From Thermoplasmata archaeon (GTDB lineage: Archaea; Thermoplasmatota; Thermoplasmata; Thermoplasmatales; Thermoplasmataceae): a stretch of DNA of 52,238 nucleotides. Location of the stretch: the NCBI GenBank assembly GCA_021797735.1, contig JAJZZE010000004.1, positions 1 through 52,238 on the forward strand, written 5' to 3'. The position numbers and the translations under genes were made by a program. A model generated the notes under the pieces. That model searched no databases and was not told the DNA's origin. It saw nothing but the letters and a program-made list of their open reading frames with translations. Of this stretch, positions 17,318 to 27,243 are shown one piece after another (the stretch's first letter is position 1; every line of letters starts with the position of its first letter).

Positions 17318-17364
17318 TTGAATTACAGGGCTTTCATTATTGTAATCTTCTGCATGTAATTCAA
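17318..17364. repeat. Inverted repeat over the stop codon of the GPH transporter
   Basis: TTGAATTACA at 17318-17327 is the exact reverse complement of 17355-17364, with a 27-base loop. The right arm covers the stop codon of the leftward transporter gene, so a hairpin could form at the end of its mRNA. Confidence 0.4.
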
Positions 17365-18659
17365 ATACCTTTCTTGGGTAGGGGAACCCTAAAAAATAAT
17401 AGAGCCGTTATTAGCAATGTAATGCCACTTATAACCCCCAGTAATCCTATAAAGACTTCCGAACGGTGTGGCAGGTATACATAGGTGATCCAGTATCCTA
17501 ATGCCAGCCCCGCCATCGAGGATGGAATCCTTTCCATAAGCCCCTGGACGCTAAAATACATTGCTTCCCTCCGGTATCCTGTAATCTCTTCGTCCCTATC
17601 AATGACCTCTCCTAAAATGGCATTGGGAAGAATAAAGTATGATGTAAGGCCCATGCCGGCTACCGCCATTATTAGGATTGTTGCAAAAATTCTATAGTCC
17701 AGTGGAATAAAAATCAGTAAAAAAGTTGACAGAAAAGAAATGCCAAGGATGGAGGTAAAGACTATAAATGCCTTCTTCTCCCCATATTTATCCGAATACT
17801 TTATCATGGCAGGGCTAAAGCCCATGGCAAAAAGGATTGCAATTAGGGTAAATATGCCAACATAACTTTCAAAATGAGGGTTCCCAGGAAATACCAGATC
17901 TTCTGTTATGTAACCCAGTGAAGAAAGAAGAAAATAGAAACCGAACTGGAAGGCTAAATATGCAACAATAAATCTGTTGAACATGGAATTCTTGAAAGTC
18001 TGTAAGAAAGCCTGCTTAAAAGTATACTCTACTGGTGCTTTGGTGGAAACTACACTCTCACTTGTGAAGAAAAAAACAAGCAAAAATGAAAGTAAAATGA
18101 AAAATCCCATGGCAAGGCCTACAATTTGAATACTGAGTCCCAGTCCAAGAAACAGTACAGGCATAGCAGATGCCAGTATAATCCCTATAATGGAAAAATA
18201 TGCCATGATGGTTGTAAGGCGCACCCTTTCATTTGGTGTGCTGGCAATTTCCGGGATCAGGGAAAGGTACGGAGCCACAACATATGCAAAAAAGAAGTTA
18301 TATGCAACAAAAACAAGGGAAAGTATAACAGCACCATGTATTCCAGTTTCAAAAGGAAACCAGAGAAGAATAAAAAAAATGACAAAGGGTATGATACCGC
18401 TAATTATAAAGAATCTCCTCCTTCCGAATCTGGACCGGGATTTATCGCTAAGGTTCCCAACAAAGGGATTTGCAATTGCCTGAACAAGGGTTCCCAGAAA
18501 GAAAGATATTCCCACTAAAAAGCTAGGAATTATTATTCTGCCAGATGTGGGAGCATAAAAAATAAACAAATAGGTCTGGGTAAAGAAGCCCGGAAGCGTG
18601 TATCCAAGGTTTCCGGTGGAATATAGTATCCTCCTCCTGCTACCCAGTGTATATGTCAT
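17361..18659 (-). CDS. GPH-type MFS sugar/glycoside:cation symporter
   Basis: A 432-residue, 12-helix transporter. GNLGYTLPGFFTQTYLFIFY at the start, NPFVGNLSDKSRSRFGRRRFFI after helix 2 (about 62-83) and the later DKYGEKKAF loop match the glycoside-pentoside-hexuronide:cation symporter family. These import sugars, glycosides or hexuronides. It sits at the edge of an amino-sugar degradation block and could bring in N-acetylglucosamine or a chitobiose-like sugar. An intact IS630 element now begins 30 bases before its start codon, so the original promoter has probably been displaced. Confidence 0.75.
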   Translation of the reverse strand: MTYTLGSRRRILYSTGNLGYTLPGFFTQTYLFIFYAPTSGRIIIPSFLVGISFFLGTLVQAIANPFVGNLSDKSRSRFGRRRFFIISGIIPFVIFFILLWFPFETGIHGAVILSLVFVAYNFFFAYVVAPYLSLIPEIASTPNERVRLTTIMAYFSIIGIILASAMPVLFLGLGLSIQIVGLAMGFFILLSFLLVFFFTSESVVSTKAPVEYTFKQAFLQTFKNSMFNRFIVAYLAFQFGFYFLLSSLGYITEDLVFPGNPHFESYVGIFTLIAILFAMGFSPAMIKYSDKYGEKKAFIVFTSILGISFLSTFLLIFIPLDYRIFATILIMAVAGMGLTSYFILPNAILGEVIDRDEEITGYRREAMYFSVQGLMERIPSSMAGLALGYWITYVYLPHRSEVFIGLLGVISGITLLITALLFFRVPLPKKGI

Positions 18660-18707: not shown

Positions 18708-19905
18708 ATAGCAATTATTTTATATTTTAATGCAATATAATGTTATGGTGTTCGAAAAAGTAAAACCGCATATTATTTTAAAGCCTGAAGAAAAGGAGGA
18801 ACTGGAGAAGATTGTAAACTCCAGGAAGTCCTCAGTAATGGAGAATGAGAGGGCAAGGATTATGCTAATGGATGCAGATAAAAATGCCATAAATGCCATA
18901 GCAAAGGAATTAAAAACAAACAGGACAAGGGTATACCTTACCATTAACAAGGCACTATCATTTGGAATAGAACACGCATTAAAGGATCTTCCAGGAAGGG
19001 GAAGGCACAGGACAATAGATGATGAGGCAAGGGCATATATAATAAAAACAGCATGCACAAAGCCAAAGGATCTGGGTTACCCATATGAACTATGGACAAA
19101 CAGATCATTAACAGAATACATAAGGAAGAATGCACCCGGGGAATATAAACTCATGAAATTATCAAACGGTACAGTATCAAAGATACTATCATCAGGTGGC
19201 ATACATCCAGACAGGATAAAATACTATATGGAGAAAACAGACCATGAACATGAAAGAAAACAGGCAGAGGTACTGCATGTATATAAGGAGGTAAAAATAC
19301 TGAGGGAAAATAACAGCAGTTTTCTTGCTGCATTTCTTTCATATGATGAGAAACCCAGTATACAGGCAACAGGAAATATATATCCAGACAGGCAGCCAGA
19401 TTCTAACCATGGTGAGGTATACAGAAACCATGATTACATCAGGTATGGCACACTATCACTCCTTGCAGGCATAGACCTGATCAACGGGCATATAATACCA
19501 TATATAGAGGACCGGCACAGGAGTATGGAATTTATAAACTGGTTAAAGCTTGTTGATCAATATTATCCTGATGATTATATAATTAATATAATACTGGACA
19601 ACCATTCCATACATTCCTCAAAGGAAACAATGAGATATGTATCATCAAGGCCATGGAGGTTTCATTTTATATTCACGCCAACACATGCATCATGGCTTAA
19701 TATAATAGAGATGTTCTTCAGCAAGATGGCAAGGTCAATGCTTAGGGGAATAAGGGTAGATTCAAAGGAAGAACTGAAGAAAAGGATGCTTGATTATATA
19801 GAGGGTGTGAACAACGAACCTGTTGTATTCACATGGAAATGGAAGATGGATGAAATGCCAGGGAAAATTGATATATAGTATTGCAAGGTTAATTAGGAAA
19901 CGTTA
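18690..19905. mobile_element. Complete IS630-family insertion sequence
   Basis: A 1,216-base element with matching terminal inverted repeats: TATAACGTTTCCTAATTAAC (18688-18707) and its exact complement (19888-19907), the outermost TA on each side being the probable TA target duplication typical of IS630/Tc1 elements. Between them lies one full-length transposase gene. Identical 20-base ends and an unbroken gene indicate a recent, possibly active copy. It separates the GPH transporter from the nitrilase-like gene. Confidence 0.85.
18730..19878 (+). CDS. IS630-family transposase
   Basis: A 382-residue DDE transposase. The N-terminal 130 residues hold helix-turn-helix segments for end binding (AINAIAKELKTNRTRVYLTI near 53-72). 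The catalytic triad is D206 (SYDEKPS), D290 (IILDNHSIHSSKE) and E327 (ASWLNIIEMFFSKM), with the NxxE arrangement of this family. The gene is uninterrupted and fills the element between its inverted repeats. A related copy, decayed and about 90 percent identical over its best 89 bases, lies near 37.2 kb on the other strand. Confidence 0.9.
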   Translation: MQYNVMVFEKVKPHIILKPEEKEELEKIVNSRKSSVMENERARIMLMDADKNAINAIAKELKTNRTRVYLTINKALSFGIEHALKDLPGRGRHRTIDDEARAYIIKTACTKPKDLGYPYELWTNRSLTEYIRKNAPGEYKLMKLSNGTVSKILSSGGIHPDRIKYYMEKTDHEHERKQAEVLHVYKEVKILRENNSSFLAAFLSYDEKPSIQATGNIYPDRQPDSNHGEVYRNHDYIRYGTLSLLAGIDLINGHIIPYIEDRHRSMEFINWLKLVDQYYPDDYIINIILDNHSIHSSKETMRYVSSRPWRFHFIFTPTHASWLNIIEMFFSKMARSMLRGIRVDSKEELKKRMLDYIEGVNNEPVVFTWKWKMDEMPGKIDI

Positions 19906-20223: not shown

Positions 20224-21210
20224 ATGAATATCCATGCTGTTCAGTTTGTGCTGCAATCACGGGATGCAATAGGGTATGGCTTTTCAAGGCATGTGGAGGA
20301 ATTTTACAAAAAAACATTGCCCGGTGATGTCATTATATTTCCAGAAGAGATTGGCCTTATGAGTCTTGTCCAGAGGTTTAGTTCAACAAATTTAGAAGAC
20401 ATTCTGGAAAAGGTTGTACAGATGCCCCAGTCAAATTATGGGGATAGTGGGGGAAAAACAGTATATGATAGATCAGTGGTTTCATATTTTGCTGAATATA
20501 CTTTCTCACATTTCCATGAACTGTTCTCACATCTCTCGAATAAGTATAGTGTATATACAGTTTCCTGCAATAACGACAGTAATTTGCCTTTCAGCAAATC
20601 CATATTGCCTTCTGGCCAGGATAAAGTCTATAACGTAGCCTATGTATTTAGCCCAGAGGGTGCCCGGATATTTAAACAGACAAAAGTAAATCTAACAGGT
20701 ACGGAAAAAACAATTGGACTGGCGGCAGGGAGTTATAACGATATAAAGCTGCTGAAAATAAACAATATAAAACTTGGGATAGCTATAAGTCTGGATGCCT
20801 TTGTTCCCCAGTACATTTCAAGGCTTGAAGGTGCTGATATCATAATTCAGCCAGATGCCAATAACGAAAACTGGCTCTCCTATCTTGGAAATGGCAGGTG
20901 GCAGCCAGATGAATGGATGGATTCTGCCTACTATATTGCCCAGAGGCTCTCAGGTGTTAAGTATGTTTTTAACCCAATGCTGAATGCAGATCTGGGAACC
21001 CTGAGATTTGAGGGACAGTCTGCAATCACAAAAAAAGGTGGTTCCGATGATGAGAAGAAATCATACCTGGGCAATTTGCCGGTTGTGGGATTTGCAGAAC
21101 TTTCAGAAGCTTTCTCATATGACCCGCAAAACCTGGTAAGTAGGGACGAACTCGCTGGAAAAAAGCTGGAGATTAAAGAGAAACTTTTATCTCTGGAAAT
21201 CAAAGATTAA
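20224..21210 (+). CDS. Nitrilase-superfamily protein with Ser in place of the catalytic Cys
   Basis: A 328-residue protein of the carbon-nitrogen hydrolase fold. The expected Glu is in DVIIFPEEIG (E41/E42), and the Lys in FKQTKVNLTGTE (K154). The nucleophile motif, normally G-x-x-I-C-x-D, reads LGIAISLDAFVPQY, so S189 replaces the cysteine. GADIIIQPDANNENW afterwards fits the fold. It may be a non-catalytic or altered-specificity member. The gene converges on and overlaps by 11 bases the PIG-L deacetylase gene, inside an amino-sugar block, so an amide-related role there is possible. Its reaction, if any, is unknown. Confidence 0.7.
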   Translation: MNIHAVQFVLQSRDAIGYGFSRHVEEFYKKTLPGDVIIFPEEIGLMSLVQRFSSTNLEDILEKVVQMPQSNYGDSGGKTVYDRSVVSYFAEYTFSHFHELFSHLSNKYSVYTVSCNNDSNLPFSKSILPSGQDKVYNVAYVFSPEGARIFKQTKVNLTGTEKTIGLAAGSYNDIKLLKINNIKLGIAISLDAFVPQYISRLEGADIIIQPDANNENWLSYLGNGRWQPDEWMDSAYYIAQRLSGVKYVFNPMLNADLGTLRFEGQSAITKKGGSDDEKKSYLGNLPVVGFAELSEAFSYDPQNLVSRDELAGKKLEIKEKLLSLEIKD

Positions 21211-21976
21211 TTACTGTATTTAGATGCAGCTCATTGGAATATAATAGCCGGAAAGGCTCCCCATGATCACTCCCTATCAGTTTTCCATATGCATTCTCCA
21301 GTGTGTTGATGGCTTTAAAAATATAATCTGTAGATTCAAACTGTGAAATATGGCATTTGATGGCAGCCTCCTTATCACCGAAATATTTCTCTATATCCAC
21401 AATTATGTTGGGATATGCAGTACCGGCCAGAAGCAAATCAGGGCGTTTTCCACCGGCATACCCCTTCTCTATGCCCCCATGTTCAAAAAAGAGGACACTT
21501 TCCATTACAGCCTTTCCTGTGTTTACGTGATCCAGATGTGACTCATAGGGTAGAAAAGGATCTACCGTAATTACCAGGTCTGGAGCTAATTCTCTTATGA
21601 GAGGAAGAATCTTTTTCCTCAGTATGCGTGGGCATGGAACTTCACTATCCACATATTCCAGAAAATGAACCTTTTTTAATCCCAGTACCTTTGCCGCCTG
21701 AAGCTGTTCATCCCTCCGTATATCAATAAGCGTTTCCTCATCCATATATCCCAGTGACCCCTTTCTGCCATCACTTACAACAATTAAATCAACATCCCTG
21801 CTGTTGGATGTGTAAAGTTTCATTAGTCCACCGGCAAGGAGTTCCATATCATCTGGGTGTGGGGATACTGCCACTATTTTCTTATAATGATACACTCTAT
21901 CCTGTTTTTCACCGTCCATGTTTACATTGGAAATAAATTTATTAAGCTGTTCCCGGGAAATCATCAGCATCTCCAT
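21200..21976 (-). CDS. PIG-L/LmbE family deacetylase (probable N-acetylglucosamine-type)
   Basis: A 258-residue zinc-dependent deacetylase. The metal motif SPHPDDMELLAGG spans 38-50 (H40, D43), and the later SHLDHVNTGKAV gives the second histidine pair. In Thermococcus the related enzyme Dac removes acetyl groups from diacetylchitobiose during chitin use. Next to a BadF-type kinase and a GlmD-like SIS protein, the same role on N-acetylglucosamine compounds is likely here. Three in-frame ATGs sit within five codons. The GGAG just before the last (M5) could make that the real start. Confidence 0.8.
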   Translation of the reverse strand: MEMLMISREQLNKFISNVNMDGEKQDRVYHYKKIVAVSPHPDDMELLAGGLMKLYTSNSRDVDLIVVSDGRKGSLGYMDEETLIDIRRDEQLQAAKVLGLKKVHFLEYVDSEVPCPRILRKKILPLIRELAPDLVITVDPFLPYESHLDHVNTGKAVMESVLFFEHGGIEKGYAGGKRPDLLLAGTAYPNIIVDIEKYFGDKEAAIKCHISQFESTDYIFKAINTLENAYGKLIGSDHGEPFRLLYSNELHLNTVINL

Positions 21977-22120: not shown

Positions 22121-23107
22121 TTATTTATAAATGCCCAGATAGTTTTTTAACGTTTCCGGATCCTGGTCTTCAAGCATCCCGTCTATATCTTTTATCATGC
22201 TGTCACGTAATTTTTCTGTGAAGTTATATCCAAGTTCCTTATAGAGAATAGCTATACCGCCTATGCAAACATCATATCCATAATATGAACTGACCCTCTG
22301 CCCTACATTCTTCCTTACCACATCCAGCAAGATATTTCCAGCCCTTACAGTTCCACCCACAATAGAGGCCTTTACGGGATTTTTAAACCTGTTGAGCATT
22401 GAATTCAATGCAGCTGCATCATAGGTTCCCGCCTCCATTAAAATTGACATGGCAGAACCATCTCCCTGCCTGGCAAGTTCTGATACCAGTGGTGCCATCA
22501 TGGCAACCTCCCTCTTTGGATGGTTACTTTCTAACTGGTTTATTGCCTCCTTAAATGTGTTTCTGTAATATTCCTCAACTAATTTTATTAAAGAACTGCC
22601 ATCTGCTATGCCGTCATATTGATTTTCAGCCAGCGTGATAGCACGTTTCGCAATCCACGATGCAGATCCATCATCACCTGCAAACCATCCCCACCCGCCT
22701 ATTCTTTTAAGTATGCCATTTTCCTGGTATATGCCTATACTGCCCGTTCCCGGGGCAAAAATAGCACCATCTGAAAAAAGGTTAGCCATTCTGTATGCAA
22801 ACGTACCATCATTTTCAAGCCTGAAGTCTTTGCCCTTCATAATTCCATTTACCATTTCTGTGCCGATGCTATCCGCAGTTTGTGAGTCACCGTAACCCGC
22901 TATGCCAAAAATTACATCCAGGTTCTCGATTTTACCTGATCCCAGTGCCTTCTTTATTGCATCATTAATATTATTGCTGGCAACCGGGACAGGCACAGAG
23001 AAATAATTTGATGGTCCGGATATCCCAATGCCCCCTATTTCCCCTGTCCTATCATTAAACAGCGTTGCAAAAGTTTTTGTTGCACCCCCATCTACAGATA
23101 GTATCAT
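22121..23107 (-). CDS. BadF/BcrA-type sugar kinase, probable (N-acetyl)glucosamine kinase
   Basis: A 328-residue protein of the ASKHA ATPase fold. Phosphate 1 motif SVDGGATKTFA lies at 4-14, the adenosine-side motifs include FAPGTGSIG and GGWGWFAGDDGSASWIAKRA (the N-acetylglucosamine kinase signature region), and SIVGGTVRAGN appears later. It would phosphorylate glucosamine or N-acetylglucosamine at C6. Its start overlaps the stop of the SIS gene as ATGA (23104-23107), so they are translationally coupled: phosphorylation and deamination or isomerisation of the same sugar. Confidence 0.8.
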   Translation of the reverse strand: MILSVDGGATKTFATLFNDRTGEIGGIGISGPSNYFSVPVPVASNNINDAIKKALGSGKIENLDVIFGIAGYGDSQTADSIGTEMVNGIMKGKDFRLENDGTFAYRMANLFSDGAIFAPGTGSIGIYQENGILKRIGGWGWFAGDDGSASWIAKRAITLAENQYDGIADGSSLIKLVEEYYRNTFKEAINQLESNHPKREVAMMAPLVSELARQGDGSAMSILMEAGTYDAAALNSMLNRFKNPVKASIVGGTVRAGNILLDVVRKNVGQRVSSYYGYDVCIGGIAILYKELGYNFTEKLRDSMIKDIDGMLEDQDPETLKNYLGIYK

Positions 23108-24054
23108 TGCTTAACCACCTTATGCAGTTTTTCTGGCTTATCTGGATCCAATCCGTGGGATCCAGCATAATAAAGTGATATTAACTGCAATGGAACAATA
23201 TGGAGAACTGGATCCAGTATGCCTGAAACACTTTTAACATTCATTACATCATTTCTTATTTTTATTATATTGCCTGTATATTTTTTAATTTCACCGGGAG
23301 GTTCATCATTTATACAGATCACGGAGGTTTCGTTATCCAGTGTCTGAATATATCCGTGCAGGTATTCCCTGAATGGGAAGCCCTCAGCATACAAGCTATC
23401 AGTTTCCCTTAGCTTCAGGGCACCTTCAAGGGCTATGGGGTACATACCATCACTGCCAAGCACTATAGTTTTTCTGTTAATGCGTGCTGCAATGTCTATT
23501 ATTTCTTTATTCTTAAGTATGCTATATATGCCCTCACTTAATATTCCGGTGTTAGTTTTATTTCCCGTTACTGCATCATATATTGCAACAGATGCCATCA
23601 TGGCAGCTGTAAATGATTTTGTGGCCGTTACTGCCATCTCTTTGCCAGCACCAGTAACAATAGATATATCCGCTTCTCTGCTAAGTTTTGAATTGCCAGA
23701 ATTTGTTATTCCAATTACCTTAAAGTTGTTTTCAGAGGCAATTTTAATGGCGTTTAATGCATCAATACTTTCACCGGACTGGCTGAATGCTACCAGCACT
23801 CCCCCCTGTTTTTCATAATTTTTAAGTATTCCCGAAATCTGTGATGACTGGACACTTCTGGCATTTATGCCCAGCAGGTCTAGGATATAATTAAGATACA
23901 TGGCAGAATGGTAACTTGTTCCGCTGCCTGTGATAAAAATATTTCTCCCATTACTTATGATGTCCTTTGCGGTATTTGCCATTTCAACTGAGTTTTCATA
24001 TGCAACCTTTACAGACTCCGGCTGTTCCATTATCTCATTTTCCATATTTGACAT
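23104..24054 (-). CDS. SIS-domain protein, GlmD-like glucosamine-6-phosphate deaminase
   Basis: A 316-residue protein made of two SIS domains, as in the isomerase half of GlmS but without the glutaminase half. Sugar-phosphate binding motifs are ITGSGTSYHSAMY (41-53) and FSQSGESIDAL (90-100). LEGALKLRET (209-218) and YAEGFPFREYLHG (222-234) contain the catalytic-side glutamates and the histidine region. The archaeal enzyme GlmD of Thermococcus has this architecture and converts glucosamine-6-phosphate to fructose-6-phosphate and ammonia. With a kinase and a deacetylase downstream, that is the best call. It is first of a three-gene leftward group. Confidence 0.75.
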   Translation of the reverse strand: MSNMENEIMEQPESVKVAYENSVEMANTAKDIISNGRNIFITGSGTSYHSAMYLNYILDLLGINARSVQSSQISGILKNYEKQGGVLVAFSQSGESIDALNAIKIASENNFKVIGITNSGNSKLSREADISIVTGAGKEMAVTATKSFTAAMMASVAIYDAVTGNKTNTGILSEGIYSILKNKEIIDIAARINRKTIVLGSDGMYPIALEGALKLRETDSLYAEGFPFREYLHGYIQTLDNETSVICINDEPPGEIKKYTGNIIKIRNDVMNVKSVSGILDPVLHIVPLQLISLYYAGSHGLDPDKPEKLHKVVKQ

Positions 24055-24352
24055 TATATGTCATTAATATGTTATTATTTAATTATTTTTTGAATTGGTC
24101 AATTTTTAACCATCACAAATATTACTGTAAATTATTGTACATGGCACTAAATTAGCCTCTCCGGAATTAAGGCAGGGTGTTATGCAATGCCTGTAATACA
24201 GTTTCTGCCCACAGCAGTTTCATATGCGACATGGCAGTATAATGCATTGCAGGAAAAATATGTATAATTTTTATCATTAGTAGGTGGTGGGGGATTTTTC
24301 GTTCACGCTGTTAAAATAATAAAATTATTATAAATTAAGTTTATTGACATAT

Positions 24353-25774
24353 ATGGCAATTCTAAAATTTCCTGAAAATTTTGCATGGGGGACTGCTATT
24401 TCTGCATTCCAGACAGAAATGGGAAATTCCAAAGATAGAAATCCAAAAACAGATTGGGATGTGTGGGCTAATTCTGGAGATATAATCTCTAAAAAACTCG
24501 TGAGTGGTGATAATCCCGAGGATGGAGATGGCTTCTGGGATATGTATAAAACTGATCTGGACAACGCAAAAAAAATTGGATTGAACTCCTTTAGAATGAG
24601 TATAGAGTGGGCACGCATTTTTCCCGATGCAACGTTTGACATTCCTGCAAACATTAAAAAAAATGAGAATAATACCATAACTGCCATAGACCTAAATGAT
24701 AAGAGCCTTTTGCAGATGGGTAAAATTGCAGATAAGGATTCCGTGAATCATTATATTGATATATTTAACTATGCAAGATCCCTCGGCATGAATGTATTAT
24801 TAACTTTATACCACTGGCCTTTGCCATTATGGCTGCATGATCCTGTAAATTGTCATCTTAATATTCAGAATACGGATAAAAATGGTTGGCTAAATGACCA
24901 GACATTAATTGAATTTGGCAAATATACTTTATACGCTTCAAAGGTATTCTCAAAATATGTAGATATATGGGAAACCATAAATGAGCCCGAAGTTATTTCA
25001 TTTAATGGTTATTTCTACGGAGATGAATCGGGGTTTTTACCCGGTCTGAATAATCTGGAACTTGCCGTTCAGGTTCTTCATAATCTTGCCCTTGCACACA
25101 ACATTGCCTATAAAAATATTAAAAAATTTACCAGTGTCCCGGTCGGATTCGGAATTGCCCCCCAGTACCGTGAGGCAGGCAATAGCAAACCTGAGACAAT
25201 TGAATACGTGAAATTTATGAATTATATGGGCAGTGACTGGTTTATCAATGCAGCTGTGAATGGATATTTTGATAATGACATTGATATGGTAATTGATAAA
25301 AAGGAAAACGATATTGGCAATACAGATTATATAGGCATTGATTACTATTCCAGGGAAACCTATGTTTATGATGATAATTCAGCAAACAATATAGTAAAGC
25401 TTCCCTGCAAAAACTGCACAGATTTTGACTGGGACATATATCCACCGGGAATAAGATCCGTTTTAAACTGGATTTATGAAAAATACAGGTTTCCCTTGTA
25501 CATACTTGAAAATGGCATAGCCGATTCTTCAGATTCAAAAAGGAAAGAATACATTAAGGAACACATAAAAGAACTATGGAATGCAATTAATATAGATAAA
25601 ATACCTGTTAAAGGTTATTATCACTGGTCATTAATTGATAATTTTGAGTGGGCAAAAGGATACGGTATGCGCTTTGGGCTTTTCGAGGTTGATTACCAGA
25701 ATAAAAAAAGAAAAATTAGGCCATCAGCCTATGTATATAAGGAAATATGTGAAAGCAATGGGTTAAAATTATAA
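24353..25774 (+). CDS. GH1 beta-glycosidase
   Basis: A 473-residue retaining beta-glycosidase of family GH1, similar in size to Sulfolobus LacS. FPENFAWGTAISAFQTEMG opens the barrel, the acid/base is E211 in ETINEPEV, and the nucleophile is E386 in YILENGIAD. It lacks a signal peptide, so it acts in the cytoplasm on imported disaccharides or glycosides (beta-glucosides, beta-galactosides). A TTG nine bases upstream is in frame, but the ATG at 24353 lies about 24 bases from a TATA-like box (AAATTATTATAAATTAA near 24321-24337), which fits a leaderless mRNA. A T-run follows the gene. Confidence 0.9.
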   Translation: MAILKFPENFAWGTAISAFQTEMGNSKDRNPKTDWDVWANSGDIISKKLVSGDNPEDGDGFWDMYKTDLDNAKKIGLNSFRMSIEWARIFPDATFDIPANIKKNENNTITAIDLNDKSLLQMGKIADKDSVNHYIDIFNYARSLGMNVLLTLYHWPLPLWLHDPVNCHLNIQNTDKNGWLNDQTLIEFGKYTLYASKVFSKYVDIWETINEPEVISFNGYFYGDESGFLPGLNNLELAVQVLHNLALAHNIAYKNIKKFTSVPVGFGIAPQYREAGNSKPETIEYVKFMNYMGSDWFINAAVNGYFDNDIDMVIDKKENDIGNTDYIGIDYYSRETYVYDDNSANNIVKLPCKNCTDFDWDIYPPGIRSVLNWIYEKYRFPLYILENGIADSSDSKRKEYIKEHIKELWNAINIDKIPVKGYYHWSLIDNFEWAKGYGMRFGLFEVDYQNKKRKIRPSAYVYKEICESNGLKL

Positions 25775-25821: not shown

Positions 25822-27243
25822 TTATCTGTAAAGATTTCTTGATGTAACGTTCTCTGGTATGGATAGGACCTTTTCAAGTGTTGATTCTGCCTGCTCATTT
25901 GACCTTGTCCTTGGGTCTCTATACAGAGCATCCAGAAGTACTGACTTATCTCCTGTTTCATAGGCGGAAATTGCCATTTCCAGATTTACCCATCTTGGAA
26001 CCAGGACATCCTTGTTTACCCTATCGTTTAATCCCAAGACCTTTTCAGGATGAATGCCATTTTTATCAACGTTAACCGGAATTTCAACTGCTGCATATTC
26101 TGGTAAATACTTTACATTAGTATCTCCATGAAATATATTTTTAACATCAAAAAACGCTTTGATTTTACGGTCCAGCAGTATGCCCTCAATAAACGGTATT
26201 ACCGGGTCATCTCCAGGCTCTGGTGGAATAATTGAAAGCAACGTACCCTTATCAACATTATATAAATTACTCATATACTGACTGATCATATCTAAGGCTG
26301 CCAGATATCTACCCCAACCGATTTCCGAGTCAAAACCACCATATGGGCCATACCATTTTTTCTTGGTTTGTAAATTATAGTGGTATTTCCATGTTCCGCT
26401 CCTGACTGTATCACCAACGGGAAAAAGTCCATAGCTTTTATACATATCTATTGCAGCTCTACTAAACTGCACATTTTCTGATATAATACGAATGTCAATT
26501 TCATTATCGAATGTATTATAAAAAGAATTGTTTTTCCAGTGTTTTTCCGAGTCTTTATCTATCCAGTTATTTAGTTTTTCATAAAATTCCAGTTCATTTT
26601 GATTTGATCTGGTAATCCATATATTATGATTTATACCTGCGACATTGATATTGTGGCCGTCAAGATTAAAGTTTTTTATTATCTGGTTTAAATGTAGTGT
26701 ACCATCACAGTAGCTTACGGATTTGATCTTATTTTCCTTATCTCTGTTAATTAATGTTTGGAGCTCAAACATTGGATTTGATACGCTTAATAACCACGCA
26801 TCTGGAGAAATATCATGGATGTTAATTGTGAGATTTTTAATATAATTATACTGATCTACTGCAGAATACATTGTTGCGTAATCTGAAATCATGTTAAATT
26901 CCCTGCTTTCTATACCCCTGTAATATCCCATTTCTTCTGTTACTTTTCTTACTTTTTCCTGCAAAATGTGTCCGGCCCCGGCAAGAACGCTATTTATTAT
27001 AAAATCAGCGTCTTTCAGGGCATCTTTCATTGATGCTGTTCCTGTTATCTTCAGTTTTCCCCCAATTACTTCATTGTATCTTTTTGCCAGTCTCATAATC
27101 TCTGTAAGCTTTTCCTCATTAATATCCACAAATACAATTTCTGAACTTTTTAGCTCATCGGTTACACACAAATCTCTTACAATTTTTAAAGCCCAGGCTG
27201 CACTTCCTGCACCTATATAAACTATTTTTATTTTTTCGTTCAT
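25822..27243 (-). CDS. GH4 family NAD-dependent glycosidase
   Basis: A 473-residue glycosidase of family GH4, which uses NAD and a divalent metal to cleave glycosides by an oxidation-elimination mechanism. The Rossmann start is IKIVYIGAGSAAWALKIVRD (5-24), then FVDINEEKL. Metal ligands by family comparison are C179 (SVSYCDGT) and H206 (GINHNIW). SNPMFE (155-160) is the TNP-like loop. Members hydrolyse alpha-glucosides, alpha-galactosides, glucuronides or phosphorylated sugars, and this one cannot be placed further. It overlaps the upstream APC permease gene by ATGA, so its substrate probably enters through that permease, which is unusual for a sugar enzyme. Confidence 0.85.
   Translation of the reverse strand: MNEKIKIVYIGAGSAAWALKIVRDLCVTDELKSSEIVFVDINEEKLTEIMRLAKRYNEVIGGKLKITGTASMKDALKDADFIINSVLAGAGHILQEKVRKVTEEMGYYRGIESREFNMISDYATMYSAVDQYNYIKNLTINIHDISPDAWLLSVSNPMFELQTLINRDKENKIKSVSYCDGTLHLNQIIKNFNLDGHNINVAGINHNIWITRSNQNELEFYEKLNNWIDKDSEKHWKNNSFYNTFDNEIDIRIISENVQFSRAAIDMYKSYGLFPVGDTVRSGTWKYHYNLQTKKKWYGPYGGFDSEIGWGRYLAALDMISQYMSNLYNVDKGTLLSIIPPEPGDDPVIPFIEGILLDRKIKAFFDVKNIFHGDTNVKYLPEYAAVEIPVNVDKNGIHPEKVLGLNDRVNKDVLVPRWVNLEMAISAYETGDKSVLLDALYRDPRTRSNEQAESTLEKVLSIPENVTSRNLYR

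Follow-up and report, generated by a model that had tools for sequence, protein, structure and literature searches.

Gene content of the locus and assignment of the nitrilase fold

The window, which denotes the whole analysed stretch of 52,238 nucleotides of Thermoplasmata DNA, contains an unbroken open reading frame with an ATG start codon that specifies a nitrilase-like protein of 328 amino acids (Table 1). The gene is located in an amino-sugar block that had been recognized in the first-pass annotation, and this neighbourhood proved to be real and to be conserved at the orthologous loci. The PIG-L/LmbE-type deacetylase encoded next to it was assigned to its family by a score of 99 bits with PF02585 and by the presence of the invariant metal motifs PHPDD (residues 39-43), H147, D149 and H150.

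Table 1. Positions of genes and selected codons in the window
Feature	Position	Strand	Evidence
GPH/MFS_2-type sugar transporter	17361..18659	-	PF13347, E=9e-44; orthologue in 11 neighbourhoods
IS630 transposase, between transporter and nitrilase gene	18730..19878	+	NF033545, 174 bits (cut-off 100)
Ser-type nitrilase-like protein, 328 aa	20224..21210	+	Open reading frame, profile alignment, AlphaFold2, Foldseek, tree
E41 codon, Glu serving as general base in the nitrilase triad	20344..20346	+	FPE-E; kept in all covering family members except L026
C115 codon, sole cysteine of the protein	20566..20568	+	Kept in archaeal and some bacterial members, 14/30
K154 codon, catalytic Lys	20683..20685	+	Ser clade 30/30, Cys relatives 31/31
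E161 codon, likely equivalent to the fourth Glu of amidases, which positions the substrate	20704..20706	+	Invariant in alignment A2 and HMM alignment
S189 codon AGT, nucleophile position, Ser replacing Cys	20788..20790	+	Read directly (AISLDAF / GIAISLDAF)
D211 codon GAT, QPDAN motif	20854..20856	+	Ser in all Cys relatives
PIG-L/LmbE-type deacetylase, convergent with nitrilase gene, 3' ends overlapping	21200..21976	-	PF02585, E=3.7e-28
BadF/BcrAD-type sugar kinase, N-acetylglucosamine kinase-like	22121..23107	-	PF01869, E=4e-40; NF046058, E=4.5e-26, below cut-off
SIS-domain glucosamine-6-phosphate deaminase/GlmS-like	23104..24054	-	PF01380; NF046059 and NF041128 below cut-off; orthologue in 8 neighbourhoods
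GH1 beta-glycosidase	24344..25774	+	PF00232, E=3e-75; orthologue in 9 neighbourhoods
GH4 glycosidase (AglA-like)	25822..27243	-	PF02056/PF11975; orthologue in 5 neighbourhoods

Profile searches were needed to place the protein, as a search of the PDB with the single sequence yielded only a chance match to FabG. With the Pfam model CN_hydrolase (PF00795) the window protein scored 18.5 bits and thus remained under the cut-off of 23.2 bits, which the five other Ser members tested exceeded with 25.1 to 45.5 bits. None of the NCBIfam nitrilase/amidase equivalogs (NF040852, TIGR03381, NF043013 and lnt) reached its cut-off, the scores being 17-29 bits compared with 133-500 bits, nor did any of the known sub-family models fit, the top NCBIfam match reaching 22.8 bits where 500 are required. 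The AlphaFold2 model calculated with 17 homologues had a mean pLDDT of 86.4 and a pTM of 0.87, and the best 50 matches of this model in a Foldseek search of the PDB all belong to the nitrilase superfamily (E-values of about 1e-12 to 1e-13, TM-scores of about 0.5). The protein accordingly adopts the alpha-beta-beta-alpha fold of nitrilases, in line with the original impression that the fold is normal.

The profile alignment with solved nitrilases matched S189 to the motif Cys (GICYD/MICFD) in YLR351C (1f89; GICYD), mouse Nit2 (2w1v) and PH0642 (1j31; MICFD), so that the proposed replacement of the nucleophilic Cys by Ser at this position was confirmed. In the model, S189 is found at the strand-helix turn formed by strand 182-186 and helix 189-193, while E41, K154 and D211 directly follow strands 36-38, 148-153 and 206-208, respectively. 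The catalytic Glu had been read as E41/E42; E41 is in place and conserved, whereas the adjacent column varies between E, D, H, N and M, and E42 was therefore rejected as catalytic residue. The E41 region is missing from the bacterial Ser member L026, the open reading frame of which is short at the N-terminus. The catalytic Lys, K154, is present as stated and occurs in 61/61 sequences of the Ser clade and its Cys relatives. The conserved E161 is located seven residues past K154, and its column slips by one in the tree alignment because of bacterial members with an insertion.

The window protein thus represents a CN-hydrolase (nitrilase) fold with Ser on the nucleophile column. It shares with the PF00795 nitrilases, including yeast YLR351C/Nit2, mouse Nit2 and the PH0642 amidase, the fold, the Glu, the Lys, the Glu past the Lys, the strand-helix nucleophile turn and the PxA loop, but differs from them by Ser instead of Cys, by Asp instead of Ser, Gly or Ala at position 211 and by an identity of less than 20%. 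Since the catalytic Cys is replaced by Ser in all 30 members of the clade described below, the designation nitrilase-like refers to shared fold and ancestry and not to a Cys-Glu-Lys enzyme.

Distribution and phylogeny of the Ser clade

The search of 117 genomes from the order detected homologues of full or nearly full length in members of three families, and wider sampling of the phylum returned matches inside the order only. Genome scans additionally detected relatives in a Chloroflexota group, in Deinococcota, in a phylum labelled Neomarinimicrobiota and in HRbin19-like and 'Deltaproteobacteria' MAGs. The contig scan relied on the motifs IAISLDAF and WQP[ED]EWM and is therefore biased toward Ser members; the profile searches of genomes are independent of these motifs, but the profile itself was made from Ser members. 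One homologue (L036) with the sequences VAISLDAF and WQAEEW was not selected by the scan motif, and one Ser homologue reads IS-M-D at the nucleophile motif.

All archaeal homologues with coverage of this site retain Ser189, and so do bacterial homologues from several phyla. Altogether, Ser occupies this column in 30/30 sequences of the clade down to an identity of about 25%, which puts the change beyond chance. A single-strain mutation or a sequencing error was therefore rejected, as was the prospect of orthologues with Cys at this position, and the intact reading frame along with the conserved Ser supports the earlier statement that the gene is not simply decayed. The 30 Ser sequences grouped without exception on one branch of the maximum-likelihood tree, which was calculated from 78 rows (support values 95/93), and a single change was obtained in 96% of the bootstrap trees. 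Cys relatives from Deinococcota and Chloroflexota (ICLD...QPSAN; L065-L067 and L072-L099) adjoin this branch, with the ordinary nitrilases located outside. According to profile and tree, these Cys relatives belong to the same sub-family; Q209, A212, N213, W217, W231, M252 and G264 occur in both groups, and no archaeal members of the Cys type were found.

A comparison of the 30 Ser sequences with the 31 Cys relatives, using thresholds of 95% and 90% for fixed columns, revealed only two columns that are fixed differently, namely 189 (Ser in 30/30, Cys in 31/31) and 211 (Asp in 30/30, Ser in 31/31). No mixed state was present in these two sets; about 60 further Deinococcota matches lie outside the comparison, and a rare mixed state may occur there. 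The 13 outgroup nitrilases combine Cys with Ser, Ala or Gly at position 211, and Asp was found in none of them. The residues K154, S189, D191, Q209, D211 and W217 are invariant in all 30 Ser members, and K154, D191, Q209 and W217 are also invariant in the Cys relatives. These sequence data suggest that the nucleophile was exchanged from Cys to Ser once and anciently, that this exchange was coupled to the replacement of Ser211 by Asp and that both were then held. Owing to the single origin of the clade, the coupling of both positions counts as one event, the strength of which lies in retention over deep divergence and not in repetition.

The relative in Deinococcota was present in 90 of 111 genomes, with the Cys type in most members read, and is named only CN hydrolase in the libraries; it is a core uncharacterised gene of that phylum. 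The loci of the bacterial Ser members have no common neighbours in the comparison. Lipoprotein-like N-termini were read directly in two bacterial Ser members (L022, LLLLIFLSC-AKK; L024, LLLLITFC-GKK), and a third (L025) contains a signal-like N-terminus and a C-terminal transmembrane segment. In L026:5266-10852, genes for a sodium symporter, a NamZ exo-muramidase, an ATG22-like MFS protein and the Ser-nitrilase are arranged in a row, a block that possibly serves peptidoglycan recycling and that constitutes a single case of an amide-bearing amino-sugar context. Moreover, two Chloroflexota loci (L069:220-1141 and L070:220-1141) contain a second nitrilase-like open reading frame adjoining an intact Cys-type one (ICMD). 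Its product carries Gly at the nucleophile position (IGSD/IGGD) and Gln in the Lys column and is, as judged from these residues, likely a pseudoenzyme partner.

The archaeal gene cluster and its co-occurring genes

Clustering of the open reading frames around 35 loci yielded a conserved archaeal gene set comprising a GPH-type transporter (11 loci), a GH125-like protein (10), a GH1 protein (9), a CehA/McbA-type PHP hydrolase (9), a PIG-L deacetylase (8), a SIS-type glucosamine-6-phosphate deaminase (8), a GH4 protein (5) and a BadF-type kinase (2). Conserved neighbours are present at all archaeal Ser-nitrilase loci with flanking sequence. The Thermoplasmatales Ser-nitrilase gene is thus part of a glycan-catabolism cluster. 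At seven loci the start of the GH125-like gene overlaps the nitrilase stop codon or follows it directly, suggesting that both genes are translationally coupled. The PHP metallohydrolase gene (L014:17780-18712 and orthologues) occurs strictly within the archaeal cluster, and a gene with a weak C45/Ntn-hydrolase-like match (L014:18862-20136 and orthologues in L013 and L015) was observed near the cluster at three loci.

In the 117 genomes, 10 of the 11 with the nitrilase gene also encode the GH125-like protein (Fisher p=1.3e-12), and likewise 10 of 11 encode a PIG-L-type deacetylase (p=3.4e-11); the p-values assume independent genomes and are overstated because several carriers, which cover three families, are close relatives. 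The GH125-like partner is assigned to GH125 with 55-59 bits for PF06824 (cut-off 23.4) and E-values of 6e-19 to 4e-18 for 3qt3, 2nvp and 5m7i. In G108, when compared with its sister genome G109 (L137 versus L116), one deletion removed the 3' half of the nitrilase gene, the whole GH125-like gene and the transporter gene and truncated the PHP hydrolase gene, with the kinase and SIS deaminase genes retained downstream. The window genome itself contains the nitrilase gene but lacks the GH125-like gene, and nine genus-mates are devoid of the nitrilase, GH125-like and deacetylase genes. Together with the nearby IS630 element, these observations fit a horizontal gain of the block that was followed by the loss of one part in the window genome.

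Two known systems resemble the cluster. The N-glycan locus of S. pneumoniae (SpGH125, ROK kinase, GH20) has a similar outline, with a GH125 alpha-1,6-mannosidase encoded beside amino-sugar genes and a transporter, but it contains no nitrilase and operates by ABC transport and an endoglycosidase route (PMC5215778); moreover, the similarity of the archaeal GH125-like protein to the solved GH125 enzymes is only remote (E-value 6e-19 by profile). The chitin pathway of Thermococcales, composed of the diacetylchitobiose deacetylase Dac and the glucosaminidase GlmA, likewise combines a PIG-L/LmbE deacetylase with a glycosidase that frees glucosamine (PMC6566704, PMC4101496), whereas the archaeal cluster contains GH1, GH4 and GH125-like genes instead of GH35 GlmA, and additionally the Ser-nitrilase.

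Putative function of the Ser-type nitrilase-like proteins

We propose, with somewhat better than even confidence, that the window protein represents a monophyletic nitrilase sub-family defined by one exchange of Cys for Ser along with that of Ser211 for Asp, and that it is an active Ser hydrolase which in Thermoplasmatales cleaves an amide or ester in glycan fragments. According to nitrilase chemistry, Glu41 would act as general base for the attack of Ser189 on the carbonyl group, the oxyanion would be held by Lys154 and the backbone NH after Ser189, and substrate and water would be ordered by Glu161. Asp211 may help to position the Ser, a weaker nucleophile than Cys, or to activate it, or may bind a cationic group of the substrate; a role in the pocket is plausible, since D211 is positioned in the PxA loop past the strand neighbouring the nucleophile strand. 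The resulting acyl-Ser ester would then be resolved by water. In Thermoplasmatales the protein probably acts inside the cell, beside the sugar transporter, the GH125-like alpha-mannosidase, the PIG-L deacetylase and the glucosamine-6-phosphate deaminase, and would hydrolyse an amide (or ester) group in imported mannose/glucosamine glycan fragments, which might be the GlcNAc-Asn link or another acyl group. This idea of the substrate is based on the archaea alone because the bacterial members have no common neighbourhood.

Related enzymes and glycans provide some background. The GH125 enzymes of S. pneumoniae are N-glycan alpha-1,6-mannosidases (PMC5215778), archaeal PIG-L/LmbE deacetylases act on diacetylchitobiose (PMC4101496, PMC6566704), and Sulfolobus, which occupies similar hot acidic habitats, carries chitobiose-linked surface N-glycans with mannose (PMC2948927). 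Activity as a GlcNAc-Asn amidase would be one specific possibility, albeit of low probability. Genes of the asparaginase/aspartylglucosaminidase family PF01112 occur in 8/11 carrier archaea, so that there is no obvious gap for such an amidase to fill; the Ser-nitrilase as a replacement of aspartylglucosaminidase is accordingly unsupported, and, as this family consists mostly of asparaginases, it is not refuted either. A wider reading is put forward tentatively: the clade would be an ancient group of active Ser-Glu-Lys hydrolases, enabled by the compensating exchange of Ser211 for Asp. It would have spread over several phyla of bacteria and have been passed on to Thermoplasmatales, to serve there in a so far unrecognised pathway for glycans of mannose and glucosamine, possibly by cleavage of the GlcNAc-Asn amide.

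In characterised members of the nitrilase superfamily, an exchange of Cys for Ser usually abolishes or cripples turnover. The protein might hence be a dead nitrilase fold kept for ligand binding or regulation, in which Ser blocks turnover of the acyl-enzyme while an amide or amino sugar is still bound in the pocket with the aid of Asp211. Engineered nitrilases of this type are standard ligand-trapping mutants (PDB 4hgd, 5nz5 and 5h8k are among the Foldseek matches), and pseudoenzyme-like proteins adjoining intact nitrilases occur in L069 and L070. A natural precedent is the mycobacterial apolipoprotein N-acyltransferase BCG_2279c, in which the corresponding catalytic residue, C387, is replaced by Ser and for which no Lnt activity was detected; it differs from the Ser clade in that it belongs to the Lnt branch with a membrane domain, is considered inactive as Lnt and is not described as a broad clade (PMC3850990). 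A literature search with partial coverage returned only Lnt cases as natural Ser variants of the superfamily, which is weak evidence of absence. On the other hand, the C387S variant of Lnt forms the acyl-enzyme (PMC3850990) and keeps low activity (PMC10313180), indicating that Ser in a nitrilase fold can perform the acyl step at a low rate. Dead sites usually also lose the Lys or Glu, as did the paralogue in L069 and L070, whereas Glu, Lys and Ser are all invariant over a very deep divergence in the Ser clade and no member carries Ala, Gly or Thr at position 189. A dead fold is the main rival reading, though less probable than an active enzyme. The first-pass annotation had offered both a regulatory or binding protein and a serine-using amidase. 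The invariant Glu, Lys and Ser along with the coupled Asp211 favour a serine-using hydrolase as far as can be judged from conservation, and an active enzyme with Ser189 as the putative catalytic residue is favoured as about twice as probable as a pseudoenzyme.

Alternatively, Ser might be an oxidation-proof or acid-proof nucleophile that acts on an unchanged substrate in a hot, acidic and aerobic habitat or after export to an oxidising exterior. This assumption would suit the archaeal carriers, all of which are Thermoplasmatales, and the lipoprotein-like or exported appearance of L022, L024 and L025. It is nevertheless improbable, since a signal peptide is not obvious in the members from Chloroflexota and archaea, the archaeal members retain the cysteine C115, and ordinary Cys nitrilases are encoded in the same genome (e.g. 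L011, ICYD). There is a similarly small chance that the window gene is decaying after loss of the GH125-like partner and the nearby IS630 insertion, as could be assumed from its long terminal branch (1.14), the missing partner gene, a Pfam score below those of all other Ser members tested and the truncated copy in G108. The open frame, however, is intact with all catalytic positions kept, and merely 5 of the 73 columns that are invariant in the other archaea are altered, so that the window protein still looks constrained. It is very improbable that the thiol was relocated to C115 on a neighbouring strand, although the window protein contains no further Cys and the column is Cys in all archaeal members, because 16/30 members of the clade contain Gly, Thr or Ser at this column, the clade has no second conserved Cys and the model places C115 in the middle of strand 111-119 instead of at a strand end; a different cysteine as nucleophile, which had been named as a possible objection to the Ser assignment, was accordingly rejected for the clade.

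The established view of the nitrilase superfamily is that of an obligate Cys-Glu-Lys family, the Cys-to-Ser mutants of which serve as inactive traps. The new observation is that this exchange defines a clade across bacteria and archaea, that it is accompanied by the change from Ser211 to Asp and that the archaeal members are tied to a GH125-like glycosidase. A deep Ser clade with intact Glu and Lys and one other fixed difference from its Cys relatives makes the question of Cys versus Ser nucleophiles testable by means of two residues and in either direction. Moreover, the named set of co-inherited genes in acidophilic archaea looks like an uncharacterised route for mannose and glucosamine glycans, a type exemplified by the surface N-glycans of Sulfolobus with their chitobiose core (PMC2948927).
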